Below the pieces are notes generated by a model that was given only the letters and a program-made list of their open reading frames with translations, did no database searches and was not told the DNA's origin. Below, one piece after another: positions 21,140-63,349 of a DNA stretch of 64,000 bases (its first letter is position 1; the number at the start of each line of letters is the position of its first letter). Source of the stretch: Rubripirellula sp. (GTDB taxonomy: Bacteria; Planctomycetota; Planctomycetia; Pirellulales; Pirellulaceae); contig JAPKCI010000002.1 in NCBI GenBank assembly GCA_028823035.1, forward strand, positions 62,001 to 126,000, written 5' to 3'. The position numbers and the translations under genes are program-made.

Positions 21140-21429
21140 ACCAGACCGATTCATGACATCACAAGATGAATCCGAATCGCAGACAAAACATGCAAGCCGG
21201 GGACTTTTTTCCTAAGAACCTACCTTCACGCTCGTTGACTTTTACGCGTCGCTAGCCGACTTTGTGTCCGGTCACCTCAGCTAGTACTCAAAAACTCGTC
21301 TTTAGCGTTCTCAATCACGGCTCAAAATCGTAGTCCCGGCTCTTTTCATCGGTGAGAAAGCCTAAACTGACCATTGCCAGATCATTCGGCGAAGCCGAAT
21401 TCTCAGCTTTTCCCCAAAGGTTCACCAAA

Positions 21430-43301: not shown

Positions 43302-46286
43302 TCAATTCCTGCCGGGAATCTGCCCGGGTATCGAACCATCAAGATAACGCCAGTTTTTCAGATACGAGAGCAGATCAGACATTTGCGATGGACTGATCGT
43401 TTGTTCAAAACCCTCAGGCATGAGAGAAATACCCGGTGCTTGCAGCCGCTCAATGTCATCACGTGCAATACTCACTCGCTGCCCACCTTTTTGCTGAAGA
43501 GTCACTGCCGCAGCCGTTTCACCCACCAACAGTCCATCCAGGATGCGACCGTCGACGGTAAGCACGCTGTATTGGATAAAAGCTGCATCAATCGCTACGT
43601 TTGGATCGAGAATGGAAGTCAACAAAGCCTCTGGAGTCTTTGTCCGCGAGTCACTGATATCTGGTCCCACATTCGTTCCCTTACCCGCAATCTGATGACA
43701 GACTGAGCAGTGCTCGGTGAACAGTTTCTTACCCATGTTTGCATCACCCAGGTTGGTTGCCGATGCAGCATACGATTTCAATACCTTTGCCCGATTGGGG
43801 TCCGTAGCCAAAAGCCGATCCGCAGCGGACTTGATCCCTTCATCGGGATGCTGCCGCAGCTTTTTGGCCGTTGCTGGATCGACCACTGTGCGTGGAAAAC
43901 CACCCGCTTCAATCTGCTGCAACAACCACTTGGCATCCGCAGTACTTCGTACACAGGCCGATACAGCCGCAGACCGCACTGACAGGGTCATGCCGGTCAA
44001 GTGCTTTAAAAGATACTCCCGCGTCCACTGCTGATCATTACGGAGGTTCAACGGCAGTGCGGCGGCGCGTACAACCGGCGGCGATTCATCACTGACAAGC
44101 TCACGCAATGCCTCGTTAGCATGCCCAAAGTCGGCAGCCAGGAGCAGACAATTCGCTCGTAAGTTTGCGTCGGCCACAGCATTTCTGGCTGTTTCAATCG
44201 CCATTGAAATCAAATTTTGGCAACTTGCTTTCAACGGTTCTGGAAAATCCTCACTCACCTTCACCACCGACTGCCGCGATTTCCTGACACCTCGCACCCA
44301 TGCCCGCAGCAGATCGACTTGACGCGTGCTAAGGGAAGAAATATTCACGTCGTCAGTATCGGCCTTGACGATCAGAGTGGCGGACTCCTGGGGTGATTCG
44401 ATTGCAATCCGTTCGACCAAATGATTCAGTAACTGCCAGTCAATCTGTTCTTTCATGACGAGTTTCTTGGCCAGACCTATCAGCAATGCTCGGTCACCGC
44501 TGGCCAAAGTTCGCCGAATCCAGGGATCCTTGGCCGACCACTGATTGGCAATGACGAGCATCGCCTGAATGCGTGCTGCTGAATGGTCCGATGCCGAGGT
44601 CGCCTCCACAGCAACGTGCCGCACGACCAACGGATCCACATCGCCTGCCATTGCCTGCATTCTTTTCAGCAGCCCACTTTTCCCCAGCGACAACTGCACA
44701 CCTAACGCTCGTAAACGAGCGTCGCTGGAATCCATCATGGCAGCACGGTGTTGATCTGTCAGAGCATCCTGTCTCTGAAGCAGCCAAGCTGCTCGTGCCC
44801 TACCTGCTGGCATCACATCGCGAGAGAGAAGTATCCCGCTTAGTGGTTCGAGAACCGTTCTACCCCTTTCAAATAAAAACTGCGAAGCTGATGCCCGTTG
44901 CCATGAAGATTCCGAACTCAACCATTGAATGGCTTGCTCTGCTGTTTGCAGCGGGTCGACTTTTTGCAGCGGGTCGACCGAGTGCGGCGCAGATTCGTGA
45001 GTCACTTGCCAGATTCTTCCCAACGAAAGTCCATCACGCTGATCAGGTCTTGACTTGAGTTCGCTTGGCATAAAGTCAGGATGCTCGATCACCGCTCGCG
45101 CCATATCAACTACCAATACTGAACCCTGCGGACCAGCAGTGATATCAACTGGGCGAAACCATGTATCACTTGATGATAAAAACTCATCGTCGACCGGTTC
45201 TCGACGTGACGCCCAGACACTGCCATCCCGCACCAATTTCTGACGCTGGACCAAGTAGGCTGTCGGTTCACAGGCCAGCAACCACTCACCACCAGCATCA
45301 CTCCATCCGGGAGCAAAGACCCCGCAAGCCGCGCTAAACTGCCCGGAATGCAGATTACTGGTGGTCCAAGCATCAGCACTGGGAAACACCTGCGACTTCT
45401 CAGCAGACAGTGCGACGTCATGAATGGCATCACGAGCAACGAGCAGTGGGTCCCGCTCAACCGCAGCCAACGACAAGACGGACATCATGGCCGGATTGCG
45501 ATTACTGCAACCAAATCGTCTGCCGAAATCATCTACGGTGACTCCAAACTGACTCTTACCTGGAATGGCTCCCCACCATCCCCCTTCCGGATCGAAACAG
45601 AAATCCCGATCTCGCAAGTCTACAGGTTCCACACGCGGGTCGTAACGGGCATCAAGTGCTTTGACTGATCCACCTCGCAATCCACCGGCTACGTAAATCA
45701 GGCCATCGGGGCCAAGGGTCGGATGATTAGCTCGCAACTGTTGGTTCTGTTCTGCAAATCCCTGGAAAAGCTCGATCACTTCGTCCGCCTGATCATCCCC
45801 ATCACGGTCGCGCATGAACGAAATTTTCCCGGCCGACGTCACAAATACTCCATCCCGATAGGGTTGTACTCCGGTAGCAAACAGTAATCCTTCCGCAAAC
45901 ACGGTTGCCTGATCAAAGACCCCATCACGATCACCATCCGTAAGAATCTTGATTCGACCACTCGGGCGACTGCCCTCAGGCGGGCCGACAGGATAATCGG
46001 GCATTTCAACAACCCATAACCTGCCCCTGTGGTCGAGGCGGGCACTGACAGGATCAGCGATAAGAGGCTCCGTGGCAATCGCCTGAACAGAGTACCCCGT
46101 GCGCACTTTCAATGCTTCACGAACATGACTCACACTATGTGCAGAATCCGCATCACCACGCTGTTTCGCGACCACAGTGATGTCAACTGGCTCATCCCCG
46201 AAGGTGATCCCACCATTCAAGCCCGCCAATAAAAACACAACTGCCACCAATCCTCGTAGGAAAAATCCCAAGCGATGAACTTTCAT
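43302..46286 (-). CDS. PVC-type heme-binding CxxCH protein (sorbosone-dehydrogenase-like)
   Basis: This large exported protein (994 residues from the ATG at 46286; the frame is open to 46304) has a signal peptide (LRGLVAVVFLLAGLNGG). It continues with a beta-propeller dehydrogenase-like domain (GRLWVVEMPDYPVGP, IKILTDGDRDGVFD, LGPDGLIYVAGG). The middle is helical, HEAT-like (about residues 430-840). The C-terminal cytochrome domain has CSVCH followed by GTNVGPDIS and the typical tail ILDPNVAIDAAFIQY to GRILDGLLVGE. An 18-base repeat encodes VDPLQKVDPLQ. Such proteins are abundant in Planctomycetes; the oxidised substrate is not established. It follows the giant gene pair on the same strand after 135 bases. 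Confidence 0.87.
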   Translation of the reverse strand: MKVHRLGFFLRGLVAVVFLLAGLNGGITFGDEPVDITVVAKQRGDADSAHSVSHVREALKVRTGYSVQAIATEPLIADPVSARLDHRGRLWVVEMPDYPVGPPEGSRPSGRIKILTDGDRDGVFDQATVFAEGLLFATGVQPYRDGVFVTSAGKISFMRDRDGDDQADEVIELFQGFAEQNQQLRANHPTLGPDGLIYVAGGLRGGSVKALDARYDPRVEPVDLRDRDFCFDPEGGWWGAIPGKSQFGVTVDDFGRRFGCSNRNPAMMSVLSLAAVERDPLLVARDAIHDVALSAEKSQVFPSADAWTTSNLHSGQFSAACGVFAPGWSDAGGEWLLACEPTAYLVQRQKLVRDGSVWASRREPVDDEFLSSSDTWFRPVDITAGPQGSVLVVDMARAVIEHPDFMPSELKSRPDQRDGLSLGRIWQVTHESAPHSVDPLQKVDPLQTAEQAIQWLSSESSWQRASASQFLFERGRTVLEPLSGILLSRDVMPAGRARAAWLLQRQDALTDQHRAAMMDSSDARLRALGVQLSLGKSGLLKRMQAMAGDVDPLVVRHVAVEATSASDHSAARIQAMLVIANQWSAKDPWIRRTLASGDRALLIGLAKKLVMKEQIDWQLLNHLVERIAIESPQESATLIVKADTDDVNISSLSTRQVDLLRAWVRGVRKSRQSVVKVSEDFPEPLKASCQNLISMAIETARNAVADANLRANCLLLAADFGHANEALRELVSDESPPVVRAAALPLNLRNDQQWTREYLLKHLTGMTLSVRSAAVSACVRSTADAKWLLQQIEAGGFPRTVVDPATAKKLRQHPDEGIKSAADRLLATDPNRAKVLKSYAASATNLGDANMGKKLFTEHCSVCHQIAGKGTNVGPDISDSRTKTPEALLTSILDPNVAIDAAFIQYSVLTVDGRILDGLLVGETAAAVTLQQKGGQRVSIARDDIERLQAPGISLMPEGFEQTISPSQMSDLLSYLKNWRYLDGSIPGQIPGRN

Positions 46287-46421
46287 TGCAGTACACGTTC
46301 CCATAATTTATGTGTTGATGGTTGAGTCCGAATGGGATGCCACCTTGGATCGAGCCCCCACCAGTGACATCAAAAAGACCGCCGACCGAGTATCTGTCAT
46401 GCATACTGAATTCTAACGTCT

Positions 46422-49400
46422 TCAGCTGGACAATGACGAGCGACGAGTGGGAAACACAGGCAGAGATATTGCAACCAGAAGGATCGCACCTGCAACAGGC
46501 ACCGGAGCGACAGCAAACCCAAATACGCCCACCAACGCGAGCCAGAAAGCAGGGTGGCTGACAACAGGGACGATAAATCGCCGCAAAGGTCCAACACACG
46601 TCAGCAACGCCATGATCACGATCAAAGTAATTCCATTGACGATCAGGTTACGTAAACCGGTATTTCCACCAGATGCCACTTGAACTGTCGGACCGGAACC
46701 ATTTCCCACCAAATGTGTGATGCGTTGCGGATGGAATCCATCAAAGCCACCAACATCAAACAGGAACGGCTTGGCATCACGAGCGTCTAAAATTTCCTCT
46801 TCGCTTAGAAATCTAGCAACGAAAACGCCCATTCGGGCATCGAGTTCCTGCCATTGCAAACTTTCGATGGACGAGATCTGGTCCTTGGACTTTAAGTTGG
46901 ACGGGCTCGCCAACGTGGTCTCAGTCAAGTCGAGTTTAGGACCAAACTGAACCTGATGCCCCGATGCCTCAGCAATCATCCGATATCGTTTCAACCACAA
47001 TTGCAACCAAGCGGCAATCTCTGTCCCCGGACGCTGTGATAGTCGATCGAGTGACTCCACCGACTCAACCGCCGAACGGGCAATCGCCAAACCCCTTTCG
47101 GATAGCCTTTCCGGCATTGAATCAGAACTGCTCCGCTTCCTGACCCCCGCTCCAAAATTGGCCACCCACCGATCACTAACAGGAATCTCTTTCAAATTCG
47201 GCAGGTAATCTCCACGCTTTGCTGCCGACGCAGACGCCTCCAGTAACAATTCGATCGGTTGCCCCAATCGTGTCAACGCCAAAGGCACCCTGACCGACTG
47301 GGACTGCTGATCGTTGCTTGAACTTTGCACTGGCTCTGCCACAACCGCTCGACCCGCAGCCCAAGCTGCCAGCAATTTCGTATCCGGTGGCAAGTTCACT
47401 ACTACAGAATCCAGTCCTCCGGGAAACAGATCCCAGTGCGACAGAACAAGAATGCCATCGTTTTGAGGAAACACCTCGACATCGCAGCCAAAGAGCTCGG
47501 GCGCCACATCCACTTCTGGCAAGGGAGCCAAATCAACCGACCAGGAAGATCCTATATTCCGCAACATCACTCGTCCGGCAGTTTCGGGACCGACTGCTTT
47601 TACCACTTTCTTGCGCCATTGCAAATTTTCATTCCCCAATTGCTTGGGAACATCAATCGTGACTCGACGCAATCCAATCCCCAGTACACGCACGGGAGGA
47701 ACGCTGACTCTCGCTGACTCAGCGCCCATCAACTGTCCACGAATGACGAGGCCTTGCTCAATTATTTCCTCAGAATCAAAAGCTATACGGATGATCTGCC
47801 GGGATGGATCCGCCGACGGTTGTTTCGTCCATAACGTGGAATTTTCAACACTCAACGTGTCAAATCCACACCACCTGGTAGGAATTTCAACATCGATAAA
47901 TTCGGGCGATGGTGCAGACAGAAATTTGACAGTTGTTTTCATGTTCCAGAGACCGCCAACCCGATCAAGGACAATCTTCTGATCACAATCAAATTTAATG
48001 GTTCGTTTCGCAACCTCATAGAGCCCGCCCAAGCTGTTGGATTCCAAGTTTGTACCTGGTGGAATGAACCAAGTGGCTTCAGGAATCCAACCGTCAGCAA
48101 GAGACTGCTCAGTAAAAGAACGAAGCGGCTCGATTACTTTCTGTAGTGGTAATTCAATAGCGGTCAGGGTGGTGGATCGATCGTGGGAGATCATGTATTG
48201 ATCCAGCGTTGCGATGTCCGGTTCGAGAGTGATGCGGGGTGGCGAAAAACTTCCCGGTTTTGCACTCGTACGCAACCTTAATCTTTGCACTGCTATCGCG
48301 CTGATCTGAATCACCTCACCTTCCACCATGCTTGCCTGTGGAAAACTGCCAAGGGGAATTTCCTGATAGCCACTTTTGGCTATCGGCTTTTCGGACAGCG
48401 GTATTCCGTTGACCATAATATCCAACAATTCCATCCTCCGCGGCACACGCAGGGAATACCTCTGGCTTAGATCCGCACCGAGAGTCAGGCTTGCGCTGTA
48501 ACTGAGTTCCAGACGATCAGCCACGACCCTCAAGTCATGTTGCTGAGTCACCGTCGGCGGACTGGTAGCTTTTGCCCGAAGCACCAGCGATGGTAAATCA
48601 CCAGAAATCACATAAGATCGGTGATTGATCTTTTCGGGATATCCCTGCCACTTGCCGTTGAAATCATCCACCGAAAAAGAATCGCTGCTCTTGGCATCGA
48701 GAGAATCAAATTGCAGAGTCGAATCGCTATACAAAGCCAGCCAGGGATCGCCATTCTCGCCAAAGGTTGCTGTCACTTCTGGAATCTGGATCTCGCCCGA
48801 TTCACCACTTTGTTCGTCAGCGATCGGCGGAGCCTGGGTCCATAGCAGGCCAATCGGACTGGGATTGTCTTTGAGGCAGGTAAGAATCATCTGCCTGCGA
48901 CTGGGACTCTTGAGTTCACTACTATCGAGCCTCCAGTCTCTTGACGTAACGCGAGGCATCGCGGCGTCACGAATGTCAAACTGAAATGCTTCACCTTCGG
49001 CGATTAAGCCAGGCGGATCAACTTCACAATCAATCGTTACCTGCCTGCGTCCGGCATTCACACGGTACCGCCGCCCAAGCTTCCTTGGAATTTCCGTTTT
49101 GGCAGTCAACAACGTCCGAAACTCGATCTCCAACTCGGTGCGGGGTCCGAGTTCTTCTGTCCAACGCCGTAACTCCGTTTCCTCCAGCAACCTGCCTCCC
49201 ACCCTTAAGGCACTTACGTTCTGCTCTGATTCGACCACCAATCCGGAAGACGCCACCGGGGGAATTCCCAGGGCCACTCTAACCCATGGTTTTTCCGTGC
49301 TGACAGTGGGAATCAGGGCCACTCGTATACGAGCGGAAACGCCAGCCGGCAGCGTAGCGATTGCCCAACCGTCGCGATCGGCTTCAAATCGAATGATGCG

Positions 49401-52400
49401 ACTAACGTCACTGACCAATTCAAGGGTACGAATCGCCTTAGCCGCGATTGGCAGGCGAACAACATTCGCGCCCCGCTCGCCGTCCTCAAGGTGGATCAGG
49501 TACTCCGCTTCGATGACCAAACCTTCAATTCGGTCCGTTTCAACCAACTCTGGCTCAAGAGTGACCCGATAATTTGCCCATGCAATCCGGGCGTTTTTTG
49601 GCTCCGCGCGATTCACCCGTTTAAACAACTGCGTGTGAACGCTGCCGGGGATGTACACCATGGATCCAAGGCGTTTACCAGCTTGGTCCATTGGCACGAG
49701 CACCTTGACTTCATTGAGCCCTGCAGTCGATGGCGGAACCTGAGTTTGCTCTCCTTCCTGCGCCGTCACCATCGCCGAGAGAAACAACGAAACCGCAATC
49801 AGTACGCCGATGATTTTGGCGGCTGATTCAACCGAAAACTCATAAGATGCGTCCTCGACCCTTCTACCCGGCAATCCGCCAGTTGGCGATTTCCCATTAC
49901 CGTTATGGCCAGATTCGCCAAACCAATACCAGTGACGAGCCGTCGCCAGCGTCGCTGCTGTGATTGCGGGGATAATCAACCAACCAATAATAGCCAGTTT
50001 CCATGGCCACCACAGAAACAGGATTGCAGTAAAAACCACGACCAATCCGGTGACCATGTACGGCGATCTTTCCGAAATAAACCAACACAAGGCAAAGACA
50101 AGCAAAGCAAGCAGCCAACCCATCGCCAAGGCAACGTTACGGCGAACCAGTATTACAGATTCGCCCAACCGCATGGCAACCACCGCAGCCACTCCTTGGC
50201 TCGCCTGCTCACCTCTGATCAATGCTATTGGTGCAAATGTGTCAGATGCCGCAACCAGCCGGTGCTCGGACTTCAGGACAGTGCCTGAAACATCAATTTT
50301 CGGAAACTTGCAGTCACGCAGCCAACTTGAACCATATTGACTGCGATTCCAGACAACTCGAATACTTTCCGTATCCGACCTCGGTTCCAACACCAAAGGT
50401 CGTCGCAGAATCGTCATCAGATCGACAGGCTCGTTGTCACGCTCTACTGATTCCAACTGCAGATCGGGTTCGTAGGAAATGATCAAAGGCGCCGTCGGAG
50501 AAACACGATAAACTGCCTCAATTCGATCGGTGCCGCGACTGGAAGCCTCAACACTGATCTGTTCTCGCCAAACGATAGTTACATTGGGATTTACGTCCGA
50601 ACGTTTGACAGTGATGACCGGCAATTGGATGGTGTCATATCGCAGTCTGGTGCTGCCATCCACAGCCATAGTTTCCATATCATTTCCATTGCCCACCGCA
50701 ATATTCGCCTCACCATCTGGACCAAAGTCACTTGCGACTGCTTCTCCCGACTTCCGCGGTGACAGGACCGCCGGCACCTGCTGAACATCAAGCGGCTTAT
50801 GACTCACCAAAAGTCCTACACCAATGATTGCCTCAGCACTCTGTGACGAAGCACCACTGACATTGGGCAATTTCATTTTGAGCGAATCAGGAGTGCTGTA
50901 ACGGCGTGTTGCAATCAGTTTTTTTCCACGCAGATTCCTGTCCGAAACGTCAATTGAGTATGTCTCTGCCGTCGCTGAAACATCGGACGCGGGCAGACCG
51001 ATCGTCGAAGCATCACCGCTGTCACTGATCGACCAGAGATAGGGGCCACGACCTTCCAGGCTGCCTGTCCGGACTTGCAAGTTTTTGAGAGATTGCCCAT
51101 CAGATTCAATTTCGATTTGGAGCGTTTCAACAACTTCATCACCCACGCGGCGCACATCAAACAATGTCGTCGCATTGAAGGCGACACTCGGGTCCAGCAA
51201 CAACAATTCAGGTGTCCGCCCCGCAACCGGTCGAAACCAAAGCGTCTCAGGACTCAGTCCCGAAAAAAACTGCCGCTGTTCCTCGGTCAACGAAGCCTGA
51301 TCCACGGAATCCCGCTGCATTGCGACTTCGCCACTCCAATTTAGATTTTTGGGCGGCATGACCGCAGCAATCATCTGCCCACGCACGCCGCTCGGTCGAA
51401 GGAACCAGCTTGCTGGCACCCGGGTTGCAGTCGCCCTGATCCCTGCATCTTTGTTGTTCTCAGGAAGCTCTCTTTCAAGAACGAAAATGCCCTCAGCTTC
51501 AAGCACAATGCTGGAGTTGCTGATGTCATCCGTTTCTGGCCAAACCACAATCACTCGCCCGTTAACCTTTGGACTCTCGATCACGCGTCCGGAACTTAGC
51601 AAGGTGATTGACTCACACGTCCAGTCTTCCTCAACCAACAAACGCACAGGTTCAATTCTGTCTGAATCGAGTTTGATGGCGATTCTTGCTTTCGCAAGCA
51701 ATCTGCTGTCAGCCACATTCAACCGCAGCGCGGTTTCACTCGCTGGGAACACTGAGCGATCGACAACCTGCACGCGCGACCAACTGCCACCAGCCGAAGT
51801 ATTCCTCTTCGCCTGACCAACCCCAAAACGTGGAGCGAACGCTGGTCCCTGAGCACTCAGAGTCGTTACCCCATCATCAACCATCTGGGGGCCGGATTGC
51901 TGCCAATCATCTGGCAATTCCCAAGCAATGACCCGCAACGGATCCCGCACGGAAACGACTGCGTCATCGACAACGGCAGCGTGTATCACAGCGTCACCGT
52001 CCCAGACCGGCATGGGAAGATTGCACCAACCACTCCGCTCGTTCCAACGGGTATACCCCGTAACCACAACATCCAAAAACGCGTCTGATGCAGCCAACAA
52101 ATCATCTGACGGATTGAGCCGCAGTTGCCGAACACGACCGTCGGCAACGCTACTCGAAAACGGGATTTCCTCGGACCTGACCTTGATCGACGTCACCGTC
52201 GTCCCACCGACGACCAAGTTAGGAAAACTCTGTCCCTCTGGCAGTTGTACGACCATTTTGCTGGTCCACGTCAAACCACTACGGTCAGCTTTGTACTCCA
52301 TATCGGAGCGTCGAACCACAAAGCTGCCACTTGATGCATTATCCACTTCCGGGTGAGCATGGATCGTGGCTAAATCGAGTCCACCAGCATCCAGCTCGTA

Positions 52401-53369
52401 CCATCTTAAGTCGCTCGACCTCTGTGTTTGGCTGGCATCGGGAGGTGGATCGGGGCGACTCCTCAATACACCATCATCGGAGCGAATCGAGATTCCGGGT
52501 GGCGCCGAGAAAACAAACCTGGCTTGCGGAGCTCGTGGGAACTGCATTTTGAATACATACCCATTCCCTGACTTTGTTCCACGCAAGCGCCATTTGTATT
52601 CGATTCCAAAACGATTGTCAGTTTCACCATCGCCACGAAAGACAGCCACAAGATTGCCATCAGCTTCTGATTCCAACCGTGGCAGAACGCTCGTTCCCGG
52701 CAACAACCCGCGTGGTTGCTCAACGGCCAGATTGACTTTTCCCAGCGACCGACGAACTTGCTCCGTCCGGTCTGATTCGATATTAAGAATGCTACGGTCA
52801 CTGACCAACGTATCGCCAACGAGCTGTACCCAATAAATCGCATCCTTCAAACGACTCGTTTGATCATCGGTTGCACGCGCAGTCCATTTTGCCACCGCTT
52901 CGTTAAGTTGATCTATCGACACGGGCCGGTAATCCTCCGGTACCAACTCATCCATCTGTGACTGATACATTCCAATCGGAATGAGCCTGCGGCCATCTGG
53001 CAAGGCGGTAGGTATCGACATGGTCCCAGTTGCTGGTCCCGTGTCGCTCTTGGTAGAGAAGCCATCCCGGCTCTTTTCAGCAGATCCAGCTTTTCCAGAT
53101 GAAGGCGTCTGGGCCGTAGCCGAATTTACTGACGGATCGGCAGCTTCGCCAACTTGTTGTGCCGTTGCCCATTGAGATTCCGATCCCCGTGGCCCCATCA
53201 TGACCCACATAGTATTGAAAATCAGCAAACCCAACAGCATGTGGCTCAGCCTTGGGCAACGCAGCAAATAACCTGGTTGCCGGATATTCCGTCTCAGGAG
53301 ATGCCGAATTTGCATTAGCCGCTTTTGGCCGGAATTTCCGAGGACTGGACCGTGCGTCATTCGACTCAC
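46422..53369 (-). CDS. Giant multi-module envelope protein, 2315 residues, unknown function
   Basis: I recognise no named family. The N-terminus has a membrane anchor or signal (LSHMLLGLLIFNTMWVMMG, about residues 43-61) and a low-complexity Ser/Ala linker. About a thousand beta-rich residues follow. A membrane region (about 1080-1150) has several hydrophobic segments (WLLALLVFALCWFI, MVTGLVVVFTAILFLWW). A signal-like helix (IIGVLIAVSLFLSAMVTAQEG, about 1190-1205) then restarts a second beta-rich module to about 2220. The C-terminus holds further helices (LIVIMALLTCVG, FWLALVGVFGFAVAPVPV). The second module resembles the start of the upstream 1181-residue protein. The first four bases (ATGA) overlap the stop of that gene, so translation is probably coupled. 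Confidence 0.85.
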   Translation of the reverse strand: MSRMTHGPVLGNSGQKRLMQIRHLLRRNIRQPGYLLRCPRLSHMLLGLLIFNTMWVMMGPRGSESQWATAQQVGEAADPSVNSATAQTPSSGKAGSAEKSRDGFSTKSDTGPATGTMSIPTALPDGRRLIPIGMYQSQMDELVPEDYRPVSIDQLNEAVAKWTARATDDQTSRLKDAIYWVQLVGDTLVSDRSILNIESDRTEQVRRSLGKVNLAVEQPRGLLPGTSVLPRLESEADGNLVAVFRGDGETDNRFGIEYKWRLRGTKSGNGYVFKMQFPRAPQARFVFSAPPGISIRSDDGVLRSRPDPPPDASQTQRSSDLRWYELDAGGLDLATIHAHPEVDNASSGSFVVRRSDMEYKADRSGLTWTSKMVVQLPEGQSFPNLVVGGTTVTSIKVRSEEIPFSSSVADGRVRQLRLNPSDDLLAASDAFLDVVVTGYTRWNERSGWCNLPMPVWDGDAVIHAAVVDDAVVSVRDPLRVIAWELPDDWQQSGPQMVDDGVTTLSAQGPAFAPRFGVGQAKRNTSAGGSWSRVQVVDRSVFPASETALRLNVADSRLLAKARIAIKLDSDRIEPVRLLVEEDWTCESITLLSSGRVIESPKVNGRVIVVWPETDDISNSSIVLEAEGIFVLERELPENNKDAGIRATATRVPASWFLRPSGVRGQMIAAVMPPKNLNWSGEVAMQRDSVDQASLTEEQRQFFSGLSPETLWFRPVAGRTPELLLLDPSVAFNATTLFDVRRVGDEVVETLQIEIESDGQSLKNLQVRTGSLEGRGPYLWSISDSGDASTIGLPASDVSATAETYSIDVSDRNLRGKKLIATRRYSTPDSLKMKLPNVSGASSQSAEAIIGVGLLVSHKPLDVQQVPAVLSPRKSGEAVASDFGPDGEANIAVGNGNDMETMAVDGSTRLRYDTIQLPVITVKRSDVNPNVTIVWREQISVEASSRGTDRIEAVYRVSPTAPLIISYEPDLQLESVERDNEPVDLMTILRRPLVLEPRSDTESIRVVWNRSQYGSSWLRDCKFPKIDVSGTVLKSEHRLVAASDTFAPIALIRGEQASQGVAAVVAMRLGESVILVRRNVALAMGWLLALLVFALCWFISERSPYMVTGLVVVFTAILFLWWPWKLAIIGWLIIPAITAATLATARHWYWFGESGHNGNGKSPTGGLPGRRVEDASYEFSVESAAKIIGVLIAVSLFLSAMVTAQEGEQTQVPPSTAGLNEVKVLVPMDQAGKRLGSMVYIPGSVHTQLFKRVNRAEPKNARIAWANYRVTLEPELVETDRIEGLVIEAEYLIHLEDGERGANVVRLPIAAKAIRTLELVSDVSRIIRFEADRDGWAIATLPAGVSARIRVALIPTVSTEKPWVRVALGIPPVASSGLVVESEQNVSALRVGGRLLEETELRRWTEELGPRTELEIEFRTLLTAKTEIPRKLGRRYRVNAGRRQVTIDCEVDPPGLIAEGEAFQFDIRDAAMPRVTSRDWRLDSSELKSPSRRQMILTCLKDNPSPIGLLWTQAPPIADEQSGESGEIQIPEVTATFGENGDPWLALYSDSTLQFDSLDAKSSDSFSVDDFNGKWQGYPEKINHRSYVISGDLPSLVLRAKATSPPTVTQQHDLRVVADRLELSYSASLTLGADLSQRYSLRVPRRMELLDIMVNGIPLSEKPIAKSGYQEIPLGSFPQASMVEGEVIQISAIAVQRLRLRTSAKPGSFSPPRITLEPDIATLDQYMISHDRSTTLTAIELPLQKVIEPLRSFTEQSLADGWIPEATWFIPPGTNLESNSLGGLYEVAKRTIKFDCDQKIVLDRVGGLWNMKTTVKFLSAPSPEFIDVEIPTRWCGFDTLSVENSTLWTKQPSADPSRQIIRIAFDSEEIIEQGLVIRGQLMGAESARVSVPPVRVLGIGLRRVTIDVPKQLGNENLQWRKKVVKAVGPETAGRVMLRNIGSSWSVDLAPLPEVDVAPELFGCDVEVFPQNDGILVLSHWDLFPGGLDSVVVNLPPDTKLLAAWAAGRAVVAEPVQSSSNDQQSQSVRVPLALTRLGQPIELLLEASASAAKRGDYLPNLKEIPVSDRWVANFGAGVRKRSSSDSMPERLSERGLAIARSAVESVESLDRLSQRPGTEIAAWLQLWLKRYRMIAEASGHQVQFGPKLDLTETTLASPSNLKSKDQISSIESLQWQELDARMGVFVARFLSEEEILDARDAKPFLFDVGGFDGFHPQRITHLVGNGSGPTVQVASGGNTGLRNLIVNGITLIVIMALLTCVGPLRRFIVPVVSHPAFWLALVGVFGFAVAPVPVAGAILLVAISLPVFPTRRSSLSS

Positions 53370-56300
53370 ATCGTCACCTCAGTGGGTGACGGTGGCGGCA
53401 ACGGTTCTGATGCTGTCACCCCGGTGTGGTCTGCACCTACCGATTTCAGCGACCGTGTTGATGGTGGACGAGGCAGATCAGAAGACGTTGTTGTCGTCGA
53501 GAATACACGGCCATTCCTAGTTGGAGAAATCAACACGCGAACCGCAATCATCACGACGACTAACACCAACGCAATGATTCCAAACTGTCCCGCCAGCACA
53601 GCCGCGTCGGGTGCAATCGCAAGCAATCCACCGAATAACACCGCAAGAACCACGGCAGAAAGAGGATGACGAGCCTTCGGAAAATTCGTCAGAAGAACAG
53701 CAACGCACAACACAACTGAGCCGATCAAGATCCATAACACCACACGGGATACGATCACCACTTCAAATGAACGCAAATCGGAGCCGATATACAGGTAACG
53801 GTTTCCTGGTGGAGACGATATGGAAGTTGCGCCGACCAGTTCCATGAGTTTGCGATCGTCGTGACTGGGCTGTCGGTAAAGTTTCCAACGATCGAATCGC
53901 CAACTCATGCTTCGACCCAACGTTGGGGATGCCCACAAGACGTGACCGTCGAGCGGAGCGATGATCTGCCAATAAACACGCCCCACACCGAATGGCAAAC
54001 GCAAAACTGGTTCGATCGTTGCAAAGGACGACGGTGTCTCGCGTGCGATCCAAACCTGCAGGTCAACTTCGTGGCTGTTCTTATCACGCGGTAAAAGCAC
54101 GGTCAAAGTGTCGTCCTCACGCCTGACGGTACTTCTGATCCCGTCAATGAAGGCCTGTACCGAAACATCCGTGGCATCCGCTGGCAAACCCACCCGAAAA
54201 CTATCGCCGCCCTGCACTTTGGCGTGAACACTTTCCTGACGCAGGTTGCGGCCAACCACCGTCCGAACCACCGTCTTGCGAACCGTTAGCTCCTCAGGAC
54301 TGGTCAGACGGGACAGCAATTTCAAACGCAACGGATCACGAGGGAAAGTCACCAGATCCAGCGGACTCTTCGTCTGACGATCAGCCGACACCAGATCCAG
54401 TCGTCGATCACCGCGTAATGTGACACCCATCGTGCCACGAACAGTCACATCCGAAATCCCGGGACTCGGCAACGGCACTAAAACAGTCGCACCGTCACCA
54501 ATTGCTGTAGTCAAATCCTGTACGCGACGCCATTCAATCTCCATCGAGTCCATCGACAACCGTTCCGAGATCAACTCATAACGATCACCATCCAGAAACC
54601 GTAGGCGCGCCGGAGCACCATTGACCATCACAACCCAAGGCTCAGCCTGCTTCGCTTCCCTCTGGCGTTGAGCACTCGCCGTAGCATCCTCAGGATCCTG
54701 ACCCTCGTCGGGTGTCTGACGCTCTCCAGCAGTCTGGCTATTTCCAGCCAACTCGTTGGCAATCCCATTCTCGGCGAGAACAACCGGACTGCTGGCGTCC
54801 GGAATACGGACAGGCAGAATTCCTTCCAGATCCAGACTCGAAGTCACGGTCCAATTCACGCTGGTTCGTAATTGATCACCCGACAGTTCGATCGCTGCTT
54901 CGCTCGCCAGACTGATTCTGGGTGGTTGTGCGACCAAAGCACCGGAAACCCTGAGTTCCTTTTCCTGAGTTTGCAGTTGAAAGCTGGCCGTGGATGATCG
55001 CGCAGATGCATCACCCCCAGTAACTACGCGCCTTGTCAAACCAGCCGAAGCCTCCAAATCCACTACCAGTACCGAACGACCGTTGCTGATGATGTCCAAG
55101 GTCGCCTTCTGAACCCGTGCCGCTCCATCTGCGTCAGTTACCGTCGGAAGAAAAAATTCAACATCACCGTTATCGGGAGCCAGTTGCAATTCAGCAAGGA
55201 TCCGTATCTGAGCGGCATCACCGTTCCCGAAATTTTTCATATTCATGAAGCGGTCATTGTCCTCGAACGGATCGAGTAATTCACCTGTCTCTGGATTCTG
55301 GATCTCGCTGATCTGCCAGCCCGCATCATTAAATTTCAGACCCTCAGAAACCTGTCCGTTGATCGAGATTGTCATGTCGAGATTCGCAGTGGAATCGTAG
55401 ACAGTGAGCTGGGAATTACTGGTCATCCGCAACTGCCGACCTTTTTCGCCCAGCCAAAGTGGCAACTCGAAAGAAGCACGCTCGAAACGGAACTCGTAGG
55501 TGCGTCCTGACGTCGCTGACTCCTCAACTGACTCGCCCAATACACGATCAACCCATGGCCGGCTCAACCAGCGCAACCGATAGTCGCTACCCGTGCGAAC
55601 AGCAATCACACCGTTATGCCGAAGTGAACCCACAACCTCGGCAATATGAAAATTCAGCGGATTGGTTTCGGATGCATCGTTGTTTGCCAGTTGCAATTCA
55701 AAGTTCAGATCAATCCGCGATTGGCGTTCTTCCTCTGGAATGATCACATCGCGTATCTCGCTATCACGACCCTGGATCGGATCACCCAGTTCAATGGTCT
55801 GACCACTGTTACCAAGCCGGGGAGAATCAAGAACAACTGAGCCTCGAGGCAAACGCAACTGGAAAGAATCAATGGATCCACGAACGTTTTCAACCGTCAA
55901 CAGTACGTCCGCGATAGGTGGATCCTGCGGCGAATCCCAACGCACGTTGATCCGACTTTCAGCCTCCAGCAAAGCCACACCATCCTTTGATCGGGACGAA
56001 CTGCCCCAACGCAACGCATAATTGCCGCCGCCACTTTCGATCAAAAATTTCGTCGCACGTTCAGGGTTCCCTTTTGTTTTCAAGACCTCGTCACCGCGTC
56101 CCAAAATTTCTCCTTCAATGCTGTCAGCATCTACATCCACATCAACCTTCGAGGGCACATCAGGCAGTTGAAAATCGAGTGTCCTAGCGACTGAACTCTC
56201 TACAACCCGCGCGGACACCTGCATCCGCAACGTGGCCTCCTGTTGCTTGTCTGTTTTCACCAACAACAAGTGTCCACTGCCATCCGGAGTGAGGGTCATG

Positions 56301-56911
56301 AAGTACTCATCAACGCCAGTCACATCTGGTGGTGCCAGTCGATGAAAATTACCCATTCGCAATGGAATCCTGATCCACTGACCTTGCGTAGGTGCTATCA
56401 AAACCTGAATCACAACCTCCCCCTCAAACCGTTCCTGATCAGCGTCTCCTTTGATCGTCAATGACTGGTAGCTGAAGGACTGTTGCTTCGCATCGACTGC
56501 TGAATCGGGATTCGAAAGACGTTCAAATTCTTCCCAAGACAATCCCGGCATCAAAACGACGTTGTCTGACTCACTCAGAAACATGAAGGCCCGAATCGGT
56601 AAACCCTGTGAATCAACCCCATCTTCCTGTTGTTGTTCGAATACGTCCTTGGTCGGCGTAGTTCCGGGCGGTTGCGCAAACCCAACCGGAGCCTGGGACA
56701 CCAGTCCGGCTAGGACCAATATCAACAGCAAAGGATGGAAACACGACTCAGAGTAAGAGTTTCTCGTTGTTCCCTTCGGGCTTGGTCTCGTTAGCCCGTA
56801 GCTTCCCCACAGACGCAACCGAGGCGTCTTCAGGTCGGAACTGCGATGAGGAGACAAGAATCGCATTCGTCTGGCTTGGAAGAGAAAATGTGCTACCCGG
56901 ACCAGATCCAT
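53366..56911 (-). CDS. Large envelope protein, 1181 residues, partner of the giant gene
   Basis: There is no named family. A long basic N-terminus precedes a hydrophobic signal segment (HPLLLILVLAGLVSQAPVGFA, about residues 59-79), so the true start may be an internal ATG (M16 is one option). The body is rich in beta strands with alternating hydrophobic residues (for example RFEGEVVIQVLIAPTQGQW and ELPLWLGEKGRQLRMTS). A proline/glutamate-rich linker lies near residue 740. The C-terminus has three predicted membrane helices (VSRVVLWILIGSVVLCVAVL, LSAVVLAVLFGGLLAIA, FGIIALVLVVVMIAVRVLI) and a short Thr/Ser/Pro cytoplasmic tail. It is first in a two-gene unit with a 4-base overlap. Confidence 0.83.
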   Translation of the reverse strand: MDLVRVAHFLFQARRMRFLSPHRSSDLKTPRLRLWGSYGLTRPSPKGTTRNSYSESCFHPLLLILVLAGLVSQAPVGFAQPPGTTPTKDVFEQQQEDGVDSQGLPIRAFMFLSESDNVVLMPGLSWEEFERLSNPDSAVDAKQQSFSYQSLTIKGDADQERFEGEVVIQVLIAPTQGQWIRIPLRMGNFHRLAPPDVTGVDEYFMTLTPDGSGHLLLVKTDKQQEATLRMQVSARVVESSVARTLDFQLPDVPSKVDVDVDADSIEGEILGRGDEVLKTKGNPERATKFLIESGGGNYALRWGSSSRSKDGVALLEAESRINVRWDSPQDPPIADVLLTVENVRGSIDSFQLRLPRGSVVLDSPRLGNSGQTIELGDPIQGRDSEIRDVIIPEEERQSRIDLNFELQLANNDASETNPLNFHIAEVVGSLRHNGVIAVRTGSDYRLRWLSRPWVDRVLGESVEESATSGRTYEFRFERASFELPLWLGEKGRQLRMTSNSQLTVYDSTANLDMTISINGQVSEGLKFNDAGWQISEIQNPETGELLDPFEDNDRFMNMKNFGNGDAAQIRILAELQLAPDNGDVEFFLPTVTDADGAARVQKATLDIISNGRSVLVVDLEASAGLTRRVVTGGDASARSSTASFQLQTQEKELRVSGALVAQPPRISLASEAAIELSGDQLRTSVNWTVTSSLDLEGILPVRIPDASSPVVLAENGIANELAGNSQTAGERQTPDEGQDPEDATASAQRQREAKQAEPWVVMVNGAPARLRFLDGDRYELISERLSMDSMEIEWRRVQDLTTAIGDGATVLVPLPSPGISDVTVRGTMGVTLRGDRRLDLVSADRQTKSPLDLVTFPRDPLRLKLLSRLTSPEELTVRKTVVRTVVGRNLRQESVHAKVQGGDSFRVGLPADATDVSVQAFIDGIRSTVRREDDTLTVLLPRDKNSHEVDLQVWIARETPSSFATIEPVLRLPFGVGRVYWQIIAPLDGHVLWASPTLGRSMSWRFDRWKLYRQPSHDDRKLMELVGATSISSPPGNRYLYIGSDLRSFEVVIVSRVVLWILIGSVVLCVAVLLTNFPKARHPLSAVVLAVLFGGLLAIAPDAAVLAGQFGIIALVLVVVMIAVRVLISPTRNGRVFSTTTTSSDLPRPPSTRSLKSVGADHTGVTASEPLPPPSPTEVTM

Positions 56912-57335: not shown

Positions 57336-60300
57336 TTAGGCTCCATAGACCGATTTAAAGAATTCTGCCTTTTCCTCTGACGCCCGAGCTGCCTCCTCGG
57401 CAGCCTCGGCAGCGGCTTCCAATTCATTCAGCTTGGCGCGGTTGGCATCCAGCGTACCCCGATCCGCGGCTTGTGCCTTCGTCAGACCTCCCAAATCGGC
57501 CTGCAGCTTTGCCATTGCCGCCGCCATCTGTTTCATCTGAGCCTCTCGAGCTGAGATCGCCTCTGCTGTCTTGGTCGCGACGGTCTGGACAGGCTCAACA
57601 GCTTTTCGCTTGGACTCCGCTGCAGCAACTGTAGCCTGCAGTTCTGCCGCCAGTTGCTCACCCTGTTGCTGAAATGAAACGAGCTCGGACTCAATCCCTT
57701 CCAGCACAGCAGTCTTTTCCGACAAGTGATTGCGGGCAACCTCAGTAGCAGCCTTCGTGGTCGCAAAAGCGGCAGCGGCGTCATCCATATTTTTCTTTGC
57801 AACCACGATCTGCTTGTCAAGTTCCGGAACCGCAGCGGTCAATTGCTTGACTTCTGCCGCATACTTTGCCACCACTTCTGGTTGTGCCTTTAGCTTACCA
57901 GCAACATCTTTCAGCTTGGCTGTCACTGCCGTCAGCTGAACTCGACTGGTATCAAGTTTCGGCTTGGCCGATGCAACCGATTTCGTACCCTCCGCGACCT
58001 TTGCCTCTGCAGCTGTTCGAGTCGATTCTTCACGGGCTATCGTGGCCACGACCGCGTTGTGCTTTCCAGTCAGTCCTGCCTCTTCTTTGCCGAGCACAGC
58101 CATCTTCTGAATGGACTCATCCTTCATCTTTTTCGCTGCGTCAACTTGGCTCGCAATTTGAGTTAACTGGACATCAAACGCCACCTTTTGTTTGGCTGCA
58201 GCATCTCGCGCAGTCGTATGAACAAGAAGCTGCTTTTTCGTACTTTCGCTCTTGCCCTTCAGAGCCGTCTGCTGCGTCTTCGTGGCCGCCATTTTCACAT
58301 TTGCATCAGCAATCGCCTTGGTAGCGTTTTCTTTCAACACTTTTTTCGCAGCAACTGCCTTCTCGGCCTCGGTTTTTTGACCATTTGCTGTGTTCAGTGC
58401 AGCCTCCGCCTGGGCTAGTAGATCGGCAGCCGCTTTCTTCTGCGGTTCATCTTTCGCTTCGGTTTGTTGCTTCTTTGCACTTGCAACCAGATCGGTTTTG
58501 GCTTGAATTGCCTTACGAGCAGCCTCTAATCTCCCCATAGCCGCTGCTTCGCCTTCCTCTGAATTCTTAAGTTGTTCACCAGCTGTTGCCAGCTGTTGCG
58601 TGCTGGTCTGTAGCGTTTTGACAGCCGCAGCGATTTCACCAGTGATTTGATTCAAGCTTGCCTCGGCAGCTTTTCTGGCAATTTCCGATTCGGCCCCAAC
58701 ACTCACGACCACCTGTTTCATGGCAGCGACTTCAACCTCACGGGAGATAAGTTGCGAAACAGATGCAACGGCCGCCACTTTCAACTGTTCACGCTGTTTT
58801 TTGACCTTTTCGATTTCGGCGGCAATCGCAACTTTCTCAGCCTTAGCTTTATCTCGACGGACACCAGCCTCAGCCATGAGCGTCTGTTGTGTCTTGACCA
58901 GCGTTTCGCCGTCCGCAACCTGTTTTTCCATCGCCGTCACGGACGATTGTGCAACCGCCATTTCCTTGTCAATGGATGCTTTTTGCGTTTGCAAATCAGT
59001 CATCATTTTTTCATTGGCAACCTTGCTGCCATTCGCTTTGGCTAGCCCTGTTTTTGTCTGGGCTAATTTTGCAACCAAACCCGCGTGACCGACTTTGGCA
59101 GCATCGAACACTTTTTGCTGCGACGTCTCGCCAGCTAACGTCGTGGTCAGTGTCGCATTCAACTGAGCGATTTGAGCTGCGACGGTCGCCTTGTAATCTT
59201 CCAAACTGGGCGGGTTCGGAGCGAGATCGATTGATTTTTTGGGATCGGCGACGTCCCACATCACAGTGCGACCTGTCCAATCACCACCAATGATCTTTGT
59301 GCCATCATGGTTGATCACCGCTTCCAAAGCAGCCTCAGTGAACGCTGGCATCGTCGCGATCGCTCCGCCGTCCGCATTCCATAGTTTGACTGTTCTGTCT
59401 TTCCCGGAAGTCACCATACGGCCATCTTTGGCCATCACGACACCCGTGGCACCGCCGCCATGGGCGTTGAAGCTTTTCAGCTGTTTTCCGTTGTTCATTT
59501 CCCACACCTTAACGGTGCCATCTTCACTCGCGCTCACGAGAACATTGGAGTCCGCTCTCCATGAGAGGCCGCGCACTGCACCCTTGTGTCCCACGAGATC
59601 CAGGTAAATTCGTCCAGTATCCGCTTCCCAGACATGCAGACCACCCGATCGGTCACCGGAGGCAAGCAGCACCCCATCAGGACTGAAGTCAACACAATAA
59701 ACCCAGTCGGTATGCTTCTTAAGATCAAAAAGTGAATCGCCAGAAGCCGTATCAAAGATCCGCACGACTTTTTGTGGGCCACCCATGGCCACCTTGCTCA
59801 AGTCGTTGTTCACATCGGCACCGAACACGGTATCGAGTTCATCACCAACCAGCAGCAGCCGTTCGCCTGTTCTTACGTTGTAAACAGAGGCGACGCCTTT
59901 GGAGGCATGCGCCCCACCGGCAACCATCAGGTAACCACCGTCCACGCTAAACCGAAGCACCTGCGGAATACCCTCCGGAAACGGAATGATTCCTTCGAGC
60001 TTGCCAGTTTCAGTGTTATAGATAGACACTTGCTTTTGCCCGGCTACTGCGACCAAAGGAGCCCACGGGCTGGCTGCCAACGCAGAAGAAGCTGCTGCTC
60101 GCTTGGAGACAACCACTGGGATGCGCCAAAGACTTTCTGGCATCACGATCTCAGACGGTTTCCCACCTTCCATTGCTGTGAAACTGAGCGACGGACCCTT
60201 ACGTTTTTTCGCTTTGCTTCCGCTATTCTCAAGTAATCCCCCGTCGATCCATTTACGAATCACTTCGATTTTTTCTGCCGCCACCGCATCCTGATTTGGC

Positions 60301-60596
60301 GGCATCGTGGGTTCTTCCGCGTGCGTCATCACCAGATAAAGTCGGCTGCCAGCTGAGTCACCGGCAGTCACAGCGTCTCCACTACCTCCACCTTCCATCA
60401 AAGCTCCGTAGCTATCGATGGCCAAACCAGCTTCTGCATCATTGCTATTGTGACACTTCAAACAATGCTCACGGAAAATCGGCAGCACATGGTCCGTAAA
60501 ATTGGGGCTCGCTTGTTCCGGCTTTTTTTCCTGACCCAAAGCAGGGAGCAATGAAATGAGAAACAGTCCGGAGGTCAAAGATACTCGAATGATCAT
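57336..60596 (-). CDS. Cytochrome c / WD40 propeller / long coiled-coil protein
   Basis: From the ATG at 60596 the protein has 1,086 residues with a signal peptide (MIIRVSLTSGLFLISLLPAL). A planctomycete-type cytochrome domain follows, with heme motif C45-L-K-C48-H49 and the MPPNQDAV segment. Residues of about 160-470 form a WD40 propeller; repeats are visible as HTDWVYCVDFSPDGVLLASG, HKGAVRGLSWRADSNVLVSA and GRMVTSGKDRTVKLWN. The remaining 600 or so residues are a highly charged Ala/Lys/Glu/Gln-rich coiled coil without Pro, ending in FFKSVYGA. It is exported, so the coiled coil should extend in the periplasm or at the surface. The start at 60662 is less likely because it hides the signal. 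It is the last gene of the unit with the DUF1549/DUF1553 gene. Confidence 0.87.
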   Translation of the reverse strand: MIIRVSLTSGLFLISLLPALGQEKKPEQASPNFTDHVLPIFREHCLKCHNSNDAEAGLAIDSYGALMEGGGSGDAVTAGDSAGSRLYLVMTHAEEPTMPPNQDAVAAEKIEVIRKWIDGGLLENSGSKAKKRKGPSLSFTAMEGGKPSEIVMPESLWRIPVVVSKRAAASSALAASPWAPLVAVAGQKQVSIYNTETGKLEGIIPFPEGIPQVLRFSVDGGYLMVAGGAHASKGVASVYNVRTGERLLLVGDELDTVFGADVNNDLSKVAMGGPQKVVRIFDTASGDSLFDLKKHTDWVYCVDFSPDGVLLASGDRSGGLHVWEADTGRIYLDLVGHKGAVRGLSWRADSNVLVSASEDGTVKVWEMNNGKQLKSFNAHGGGATGVVMAKDGRMVTSGKDRTVKLWNADGGAIATMPAFTEAALEAVINHDGTKIIGGDWTGRTVMWDVADPKKSIDLAPNPPSLEDYKATVAAQIAQLNATLTTTLAGETSQQKVFDAAKVGHAGLVAKLAQTKTGLAKANGSKVANEKMMTDLQTQKASIDKEMAVAQSSVTAMEKQVADGETLVKTQQTLMAEAGVRRDKAKAEKVAIAAEIEKVKKQREQLKVAAVASVSQLISREVEVAAMKQVVVSVGAESEIARKAAEASLNQITGEIAAAVKTLQTSTQQLATAGEQLKNSEEGEAAAMGRLEAARKAIQAKTDLVASAKKQQTEAKDEPQKKAAADLLAQAEAALNTANGQKTEAEKAVAAKKVLKENATKAIADANVKMAATKTQQTALKGKSESTKKQLLVHTTARDAAAKQKVAFDVQLTQIASQVDAAKKMKDESIQKMAVLGKEEAGLTGKHNAVVATIAREESTRTAAEAKVAEGTKSVASAKPKLDTSRVQLTAVTAKLKDVAGKLKAQPEVVAKYAAEVKQLTAAVPELDKQIVVAKKNMDDAAAAFATTKAATEVARNHLSEKTAVLEGIESELVSFQQQGEQLAAELQATVAAAESKRKAVEPVQTVATKTAEAISAREAQMKQMAAAMAKLQADLGGLTKAQAADRGTLDANRAKLNELEAAAEAAEEAARASEEKAEFFKSVYGA

Positions 60597-60800
60597 TTCG
60601 ATTCTGTGGTGGATTGAATTGCACAGTAGTTCTGTGCGATTGGTAATTGCAGAAAATCGCAACAGGCAACAGTGAACCCGGGGAGCACCCGCACCTCACT
60701 GCAAGCCCAGCCTCATTCGAGCGTTGCTTCGAACGGCGAAAAACTCATGTTCGCAACTTCAAATCAACGTCGAAGATGCGATTCTCCCTATGCCAGGAAA

Positions 60801-63272: not shown

Positions 63273-63349
63273 GTTGATACCTTCGGGTCTTTCCATCATT
63301 GTTGGTACTTTACGCACCAACCGGGTTAGTGAATTATTTAAGGATTGTA

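Follow-up and report, generated by a model that had tools for sequence, protein, structure and literature searches.

The N-terminal domain of M1 aminopeptidases is non-catalytic in these enzymes. Ost1 (ribophorin I), a subunit of the eukaryotic oligosaccharyltransferase (OST), is described in a review as having two similar luminal beta domains and a single helix and as binding glycosylated peptides, its domains being non-catalytic (PMC7226087). In a 2016 study, no promising prokaryotic homologue of the non-catalytic OST subunits was reported (PMC4973528). Planctomycetes have heavily invaginated membranes (PMC8567305). The window analyzed here, the whole stretch of 64,000 nucleotides from Rubripirellula sp. 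(GenBank assembly GCA_028823035.1, contig JAPKCI010000002.1, positions 62,001 to 126,000), carries two overlapping giant genes, designated A and B. Their products consist, on profile comparison, of three homologous modules, and the repeats within the modules are predicted at low confidence to share the fold of the M1 N-terminal domain.

Three modules in two overlapping genes

Gene A (53366..56911, minus strand) encodes a single module in 1181 amino acids (aa), and gene B (46422..53369, minus strand) encodes two modules in one frame of 2315 aa. The stop codon of A and the start codon of B share a 4-bp GTGA overlap (53366..53369, minus strand); A ends with ATG-TGA, B starts with GTG, and the earliest ATG of B is codon 4. 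An earlier note on this DNA described two very large minus-strand genes with an ATGA overlap; the positions, the strand, and the overlap of 4 bp were recovered, and the overlap sequence has to be corrected to GTGA. A 4-bp NTGA start/stop overlap is possible in 27 of the first 33 mapped pairs (window included) and in 47/82 of all adjacent module pairs, the chance expectation not having been computed for either count.

All features of the two proteins given below lie on the minus strand. Hydropathy analysis of A gave one N-terminal hydrophobic segment (residues 54-72; 56696..56752) and three C-terminal ones (residues 1046-1128; 53528..53776), the latter also supported by the low-confidence structure model. 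Between them lies a repeat region (residues 131-1000; 53912..56521) of about five beta repeats of about 176 aa, mapped with the family profile; the part between the anchor segment and the helices spans about 1000 aa. For profile comparison of modules, B was cut at residue 1164/1165. Module B1 (residues 1-1164; 49878..53369) contains a repeat region mapped from A (residues 157-1055; 50205..52901) and three hydrophobic helices in the middle of the protein (residues 1072-1143; 49941..50156); the N-terminal segment of the window B itself stays under the hydropathy threshold. Module B2 (residues 1165-2315; 46422..49877) opens with a signal-like hydrophobic segment (residues 1183-1201; 49767..49823), followed by a repeat region mapped from A (residues 1250-2066; 47172..49622) and three terminal hydrophobic helices (residues 2242-2303; 46461..46646). 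Among the A proteins of the window and its relatives, three C-terminal segments were found in 28/33 and the N-terminal segment in 26/33. The end cluster of full-length B (window and relatives) has three segments in 10/30, two in 17/30, and one in 3/30.

The modules were aligned in pairs using hhalign, with probabilities of 99.9 for A-B1 (913 columns), 99.7 for A-B2 (818 columns), and 99.8 for B1-B2 (822 columns). Forward scores were 251-321, and the reversed-profile controls reached at most 35.7% probability and a score of 49.6. By these profile alignments, A, B1, and B2 are three homologous modules. In two genomes of other classes, a related system of three consecutive single-module genes was found instead (L110/L133 with 1202, 1419, and 1470 aa; L143 with 1128, 1237, and 1138 aa), and in a tree of modules the first, second, and third genes fall with the phylum-type A (support 0.888), B1 (0.999), and B2 (0.936), respectively; the names phylum-type and order-type for loci are our own. 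The tree holds 145 of 163 modules, 18 having been removed for low coverage, including the window B1 and B2, whose homology rests on hhalign and not on the tree. Order-type modules, the type of the window, form separate A, B1, and B2 clades. One further locus (L153, minus strand) has, behind the A+B pair, an additional gene of module type (1286 aa), a possible fourth module.

When a broad profile was compared with itself, off-diagonal matches appeared at offsets near 176, 352, and 527 columns, with probabilities of 87-99.7%. The repeated span of about 860 columns suggests about five repeats per module and hence some fifteen in A and B together. The same offsets recur for A and B2 in the order profiles, the first two at 95-98%. 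In A, transfer from the family profile puts the repeat cuts near residues 131, 305, 490, 658, and 858, and the repeat at 302-486 was also detected directly by a repeat hidden Markov model (HMM). This HMM finds 4-5 copies in 66/91 shorter open reading frames (ORFs) and 8-9 in 49/79 longer ones, counts that include fragments and paralogues.

Spread of the pair and of two-module paralogues

Sequence searches covered Planctomycetota genomes and, with one protein, plasmid records; in the latter, no relative of one phylum-type module was found at E<=1e-3. A was found in 59/60 genomes of the order using a 27-row profile to which many of these 60 genomes had supplied rows, and in 46/60 by a narrower search with the single protein (own genome included in both counts). 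B as a single-protein query was found in 26/60. Among 119 genomes spread over the phylum, a 19-row profile that included other classes placed A in 46 (own genome included), compared with 4/119 for a narrow search, so that narrow searches underestimate the spread.

A same-strand ORF lies directly downstream of A in all 32 mapped order loci; it is of full B size (2206-2962 aa) in 29 and cut by contig ends in three (L064, L068, and L093). One locus, L067, was first labelled by size and then confirmed by profile. At L082, which stands outside the 32, longest-frame ORF selection hid A, and profile search places it beside B; at L145, L151, L161, and L162, the ORF selection took antisense frames over A, which profile searches likewise place there. 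Of 20 phylum loci chosen for good matches (L143-L162), 14 have an A-sized gene directly before a double-length gene, four further loci have A by the profile table, one has three single-module genes, and one has two. The A and B frames are real and chance is excluded, since homologous long frames recur in the same order and on the same strand across the order and in other classes. The pair stays adjacent in related genomes, the synteny check that the earlier note had named, and its view that the two proteins work together gains from these conserved neighbours: a joint function is likely.

The own genome also encodes a second two-module protein of 2382 aa (L114:8810-15958, contig C131), the upstream neighbour of which is removed by the contig end. 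Where the upstream gene of a single-gene two-module locus was in view, a same-strand match to a vWA/YfbK profile was found directly upstream (11/11, five of these loci having supplied the profile), and the five profile-supplying vWA genes contain vWF_A, VWA, and YfbK_C according to Pfam. L114 and L167 end at the two-module gene, L128 and L129 are fragments that were not judged, and L169 and L170, where the two modules are separate genes, gave no vWA match. L109 and L156, which are A+B pair loci from other classes, likewise have a vWA/YfbK-like gene directly upstream, with a zf-HC2 finger at L156. In total, 13 loci have a vWA gene directly upstream on the same strand, with the domains confirmed by Pfam in seven, and a sigma-70 region 2/4 gene precedes the vWA gene in 4/4 loci checked by Pfam (L109, L163, L165, and L126). 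L157 has a 45-bit vWA/YfbK match on the opposite strand. At L109:11196-17434, the pair is directly preceded by an extracytoplasmic function (ECF) sigma gene and the gene for a vWA/YfbK protein of 1897 aa.

Predicted fold and proposed role

Searches of A and B against Pfam gave a sole line, DUF5073 (E=0.087, under its cut-off), NCBIfam gave no match, and Pfam scans of the relatives gave no consistent family for A-type members, B-type members, or repeats. TgpA_N (4.7e-5, 1/27 A-type members), M50B (0.0036, 1/21 B-type members), and DUF5693 (4/19 members, best 0.014) were attributed to chance or to hydrophobic helices. Nothing credible came from profile searches of PDB sequences, and no description of the A/B family was found in the open-access literature searched. 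As neither function nor sequence kinship to a named family is established, A and B are placed among putative membrane-anchored tandem beta-domain proteins. The earlier note had called both proteins exported or membrane-anchored, closed by helix clusters, beta-rich, and outside any named family, which agrees with the signal or anchor and membrane segments in the hydropathy plots, the low-confidence structure model of A, and the Pfam and NCBIfam results. The double-module anatomy of B, the repeats that make up the modules, and the relatives across the phylum go beyond that description.

Two structure models were made from window proteins and loci L099-L107, one of the whole of A using nine alignment rows and one of A residues 131-501 using 24 rows. 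The first has a mean predicted local distance difference test score (pLDDT) of 48.9 and a predicted template modelling score (pTM) of 0.28, with ten-residue blocks over 141-440 averaging 48-81, mostly >60. The second has a mean pLDDT of 56.2 and a pTM of 0.44, with blocks at 64-91 over model residues 11-130 (repeat 1). In structure searches, where a best Z of 7-8 is common without a true relative, repeat 2 from the first model (start 240 or 312, to 490) aligned with the N-terminal domain of leukotriene A4 hydrolase (LTA4H; 6enb_A) at Z 12.9 and 3.3 Å over 167 residues, and repeat 1 from the second model aligned with M1 aminopeptidases in all 50 matches shown (Z 8.8-9.8). Residues 141-491 of the low-confidence first model, covering two repeats, aligned with the OST chains 6ezn_A (yeast) and 8pn9_E at Z 13.2, with a root-mean-square deviation (rmsd) of 9.5 and 10.9 Å. 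Foldseek gave OST-complex chains as its first six matches (E 2.1e-7 to 5.0e-6, probability 1.00) and M1 peptidases among later ones at probability near 1. Repeats 1 and 2 of A, taken from two models, thus point with low confidence to one fold, the M1-aminopeptidase N-terminal beta saddle.

With about even confidence, we propose that A and B are a three-module envelope system, an inner-membrane-anchored, non-enzymatic periplasmic scaffold or ligand-binding array. A joint array anchored in the inner membrane is suggested by the gene overlap, the synteny, and the hydropathy; a binding or scaffold role is suggested by the absence of an HExxH zinc site from A and B and by the predicted fold, one without catalytic activity both in M1 enzymes and in Ost1. 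In this scheme, the coupled proteins would assemble in the inner membrane, and three arms with some fifteen beta saddles would project into the periplasm, where they would provide the planctomycete envelope with a scaffold and an array for binding ligands, without enzymatic activity. The repeats would take the M1 N-terminal saddle fold that Ost1/ribophorin I carries in tandem. In the paralogues behind ECF sigma and vWA genes, an array of this type may serve as the partner to which a vWA sensor of envelope state binds, and a sensor link of A and B themselves is drawn by analogy from these paralogues. A wider version is tentative and, in our judgment, rather doubtful: the complex of three homologous membrane-anchored arms and about fifteen ribophorin/M1N-type saddles could be a structural and sensory periplasmic layer across much of the phylum, with vWA-bearing anti-sigma proteins connecting the paralogues to ECF sigma factors.

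A number of results weigh against this proposal. Both structure models are weak, and the fold was compared for repeats 1 and 2 of module A only. An rmsd of about 10 Å in the OST superposition leaves the domain orientation unsupported, and the matched chains are ones that we take to be Ost1/ribophorin I, the entry titles naming only the complex. Foldseek also returned inter-alpha-inhibitor heavy chain 1 (probability 1.00, E 1.1e-3) and, at low probability, alpha-2-macroglobulin (5a42, 0.16) and integrins. At the sequence level, Ribophorin_I (PF04597) matched none of 16 family-carrying planctomycete genomes at E<=10, the 25 of 33 families listed for 87 repeats did not include Peptidase_M1_N, and hhalign gave <=6.4% against a thin M1_N profile of eight planctomycete domains. 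For the repeats, the offset near 705 was not significant (1%) in the self-comparison, B1 gives a weaker signal (best off-diagonal match 86%), and the HMM picks up no more than three stretches in the window A and four in the window B, several of them weak. The tree leaves the relation of the order-type clades to the phylum-type A, B1, and B2 unresolved. For the sensor link, no ECF or vWA gene lies beside the window locus, and a vWA gene lies upstream in only 2/31 fetched phylum-type loci.

That last count bears also on an alternative in which every member of the family, the window pair included, is the sensor arm of an ECF/anti-sigma-vWA route, its sigma and anti-sigma genes lying at other places in the genome. 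The 13 loci with an upstream vWA/YfbK-like gene (seven confirmed by Pfam), the sigma-70 gene before it in the four checked, and the single zf-HC2 at L156 fit such a route, but none of the mapped order-type loci has the vWA gene and 29 of the 31 phylum-type loci lack it, some of these being contig-cut or masked by ORF selection; we regard this alternative as unlikely. In an Ost1-like periplasmic holdase, the saddle arrays would keep freshly exported and possibly glycosylated polypeptides close to a membrane enzyme while they mature, a role that has been proposed for Ost1 next to OST. Such a holdase would account for the OST chains at the top of the Foldseek list and would parallel the peptide binding described for Ost1 (PMC7226087). 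It is quite improbable in view of the 0/16 genomes with ribophorin sequence membership, the three helices per window module as against one in Ost1, and the recurring neighbours, none of which, in the part of the clusters that was annotated, belongs to glycosylation or the Sec pathway. Adhesion is a frequent role of exported beta proteins that are long and repetitive, and A and B could by that token form a surface or adhesion structure, for example a component of the matrix or of crateriform pits, but several helices per module and a near-universal presence in the order better fit a core membrane part and make this very unlikely. A transporter or lipid-transfer bridge across the periplasm would use the membrane helices and the long predicted periplasmic region, but it is speculative and highly improbable, the recurring neighbours identified in the annotated part of the clusters including no ATPase, permease, or outer-membrane channel.

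The building parts of planctomycete membranes are poorly known. An unnamed, clearly modular pair of 10 kb that is near-universal in one order and has relatives in other parts of the phylum makes A/B a concrete candidate core component of the envelope. The position of the paralogues behind vWA and sigma genes makes a signalling role testable.

Neighbouring genes and described systems

The genes on either side of the pair in the window are all on the minus strand. Upstream of A are W (57336..60662), a PSCyt1, WD40, and coiled-coil protein, and P (60801..63320), a PSCyt2/PSD1 (DUF1549/DUF1553) protein; downstream of B is H (43302..46304), a PVC-type heme-binding CxxCH protein. W is upstream of A in 10/10 fetched genus loci and its cluster is found in 0/22 other order loci, the P cluster is found in 12/32 loci, including all 10 genus loci, and H is downstream of B in 6/10 fetched genus loci. 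The PSCyt/WD40 genes were rejected as partners because they cluster with the pair within the genus only, and W is probably not part of the A/B system. Outside the genus, an inositol-monophosphatase gene lies upstream in 12/22 order loci (12/32 overall; for example, L083:12894-13718), with one member checked by Pfam. A GNAT acetyltransferase lies downstream in six order loci (for example, L066:3827-4480); the recurrence of both may reflect position and not function. A 540-aa frame at 61638-63260 (plus strand), antisense within the DUF1549/DUF1553 gene at 60801-63320, is probably a shadow ORF.

Among described systems, operons with vWA/YfbK_C (once with zf-HC2) and ECF sigma genes are related in that they directly precede B paralogues and differ in that none is present at the window locus. 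Bacterial alpha-2-macroglobulins are, like A and B, giant proteins of multiple beta domains, but A and B have no MG, A2M, or bMG10 domain in Pfam, nor, at E<=0.01, do the 27 A-type or the 21 B-type members scanned. The window encodes a protein of the alpha-2-macroglobulin type elsewhere (MG2, A2M, and bMG10; 2011 aa; 21352-27387, plus strand), which the module profiles do not match. The N-terminal domain of M1 aminopeptidases (PF17900; LTA4H, APN, and ERAP1) resembles A in the fold predicted at low confidence for two repeats, whereas A and B lack the HExxH site of these enzymes and have no detectable sequence relation to them. Ost1/ribophorin I is eukaryotic and A/B bacterial, with no sequence match between them, and Ost1 has two domains and one helix per protein (PMC7226087), compared with three modules in A/B that each have about five repeats and a cluster of helices. 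By the low-confidence models and the hydropathy, Ost1 and A/B would have in common tandem beta domains of similar predicted fold on the exported side and a C-terminal membrane anchor. If the prediction is true, a giant bacterial array would share its tandem fold with a glycosylation subunit of eukaryotes, which would be notable even as a resemblance of fold only.

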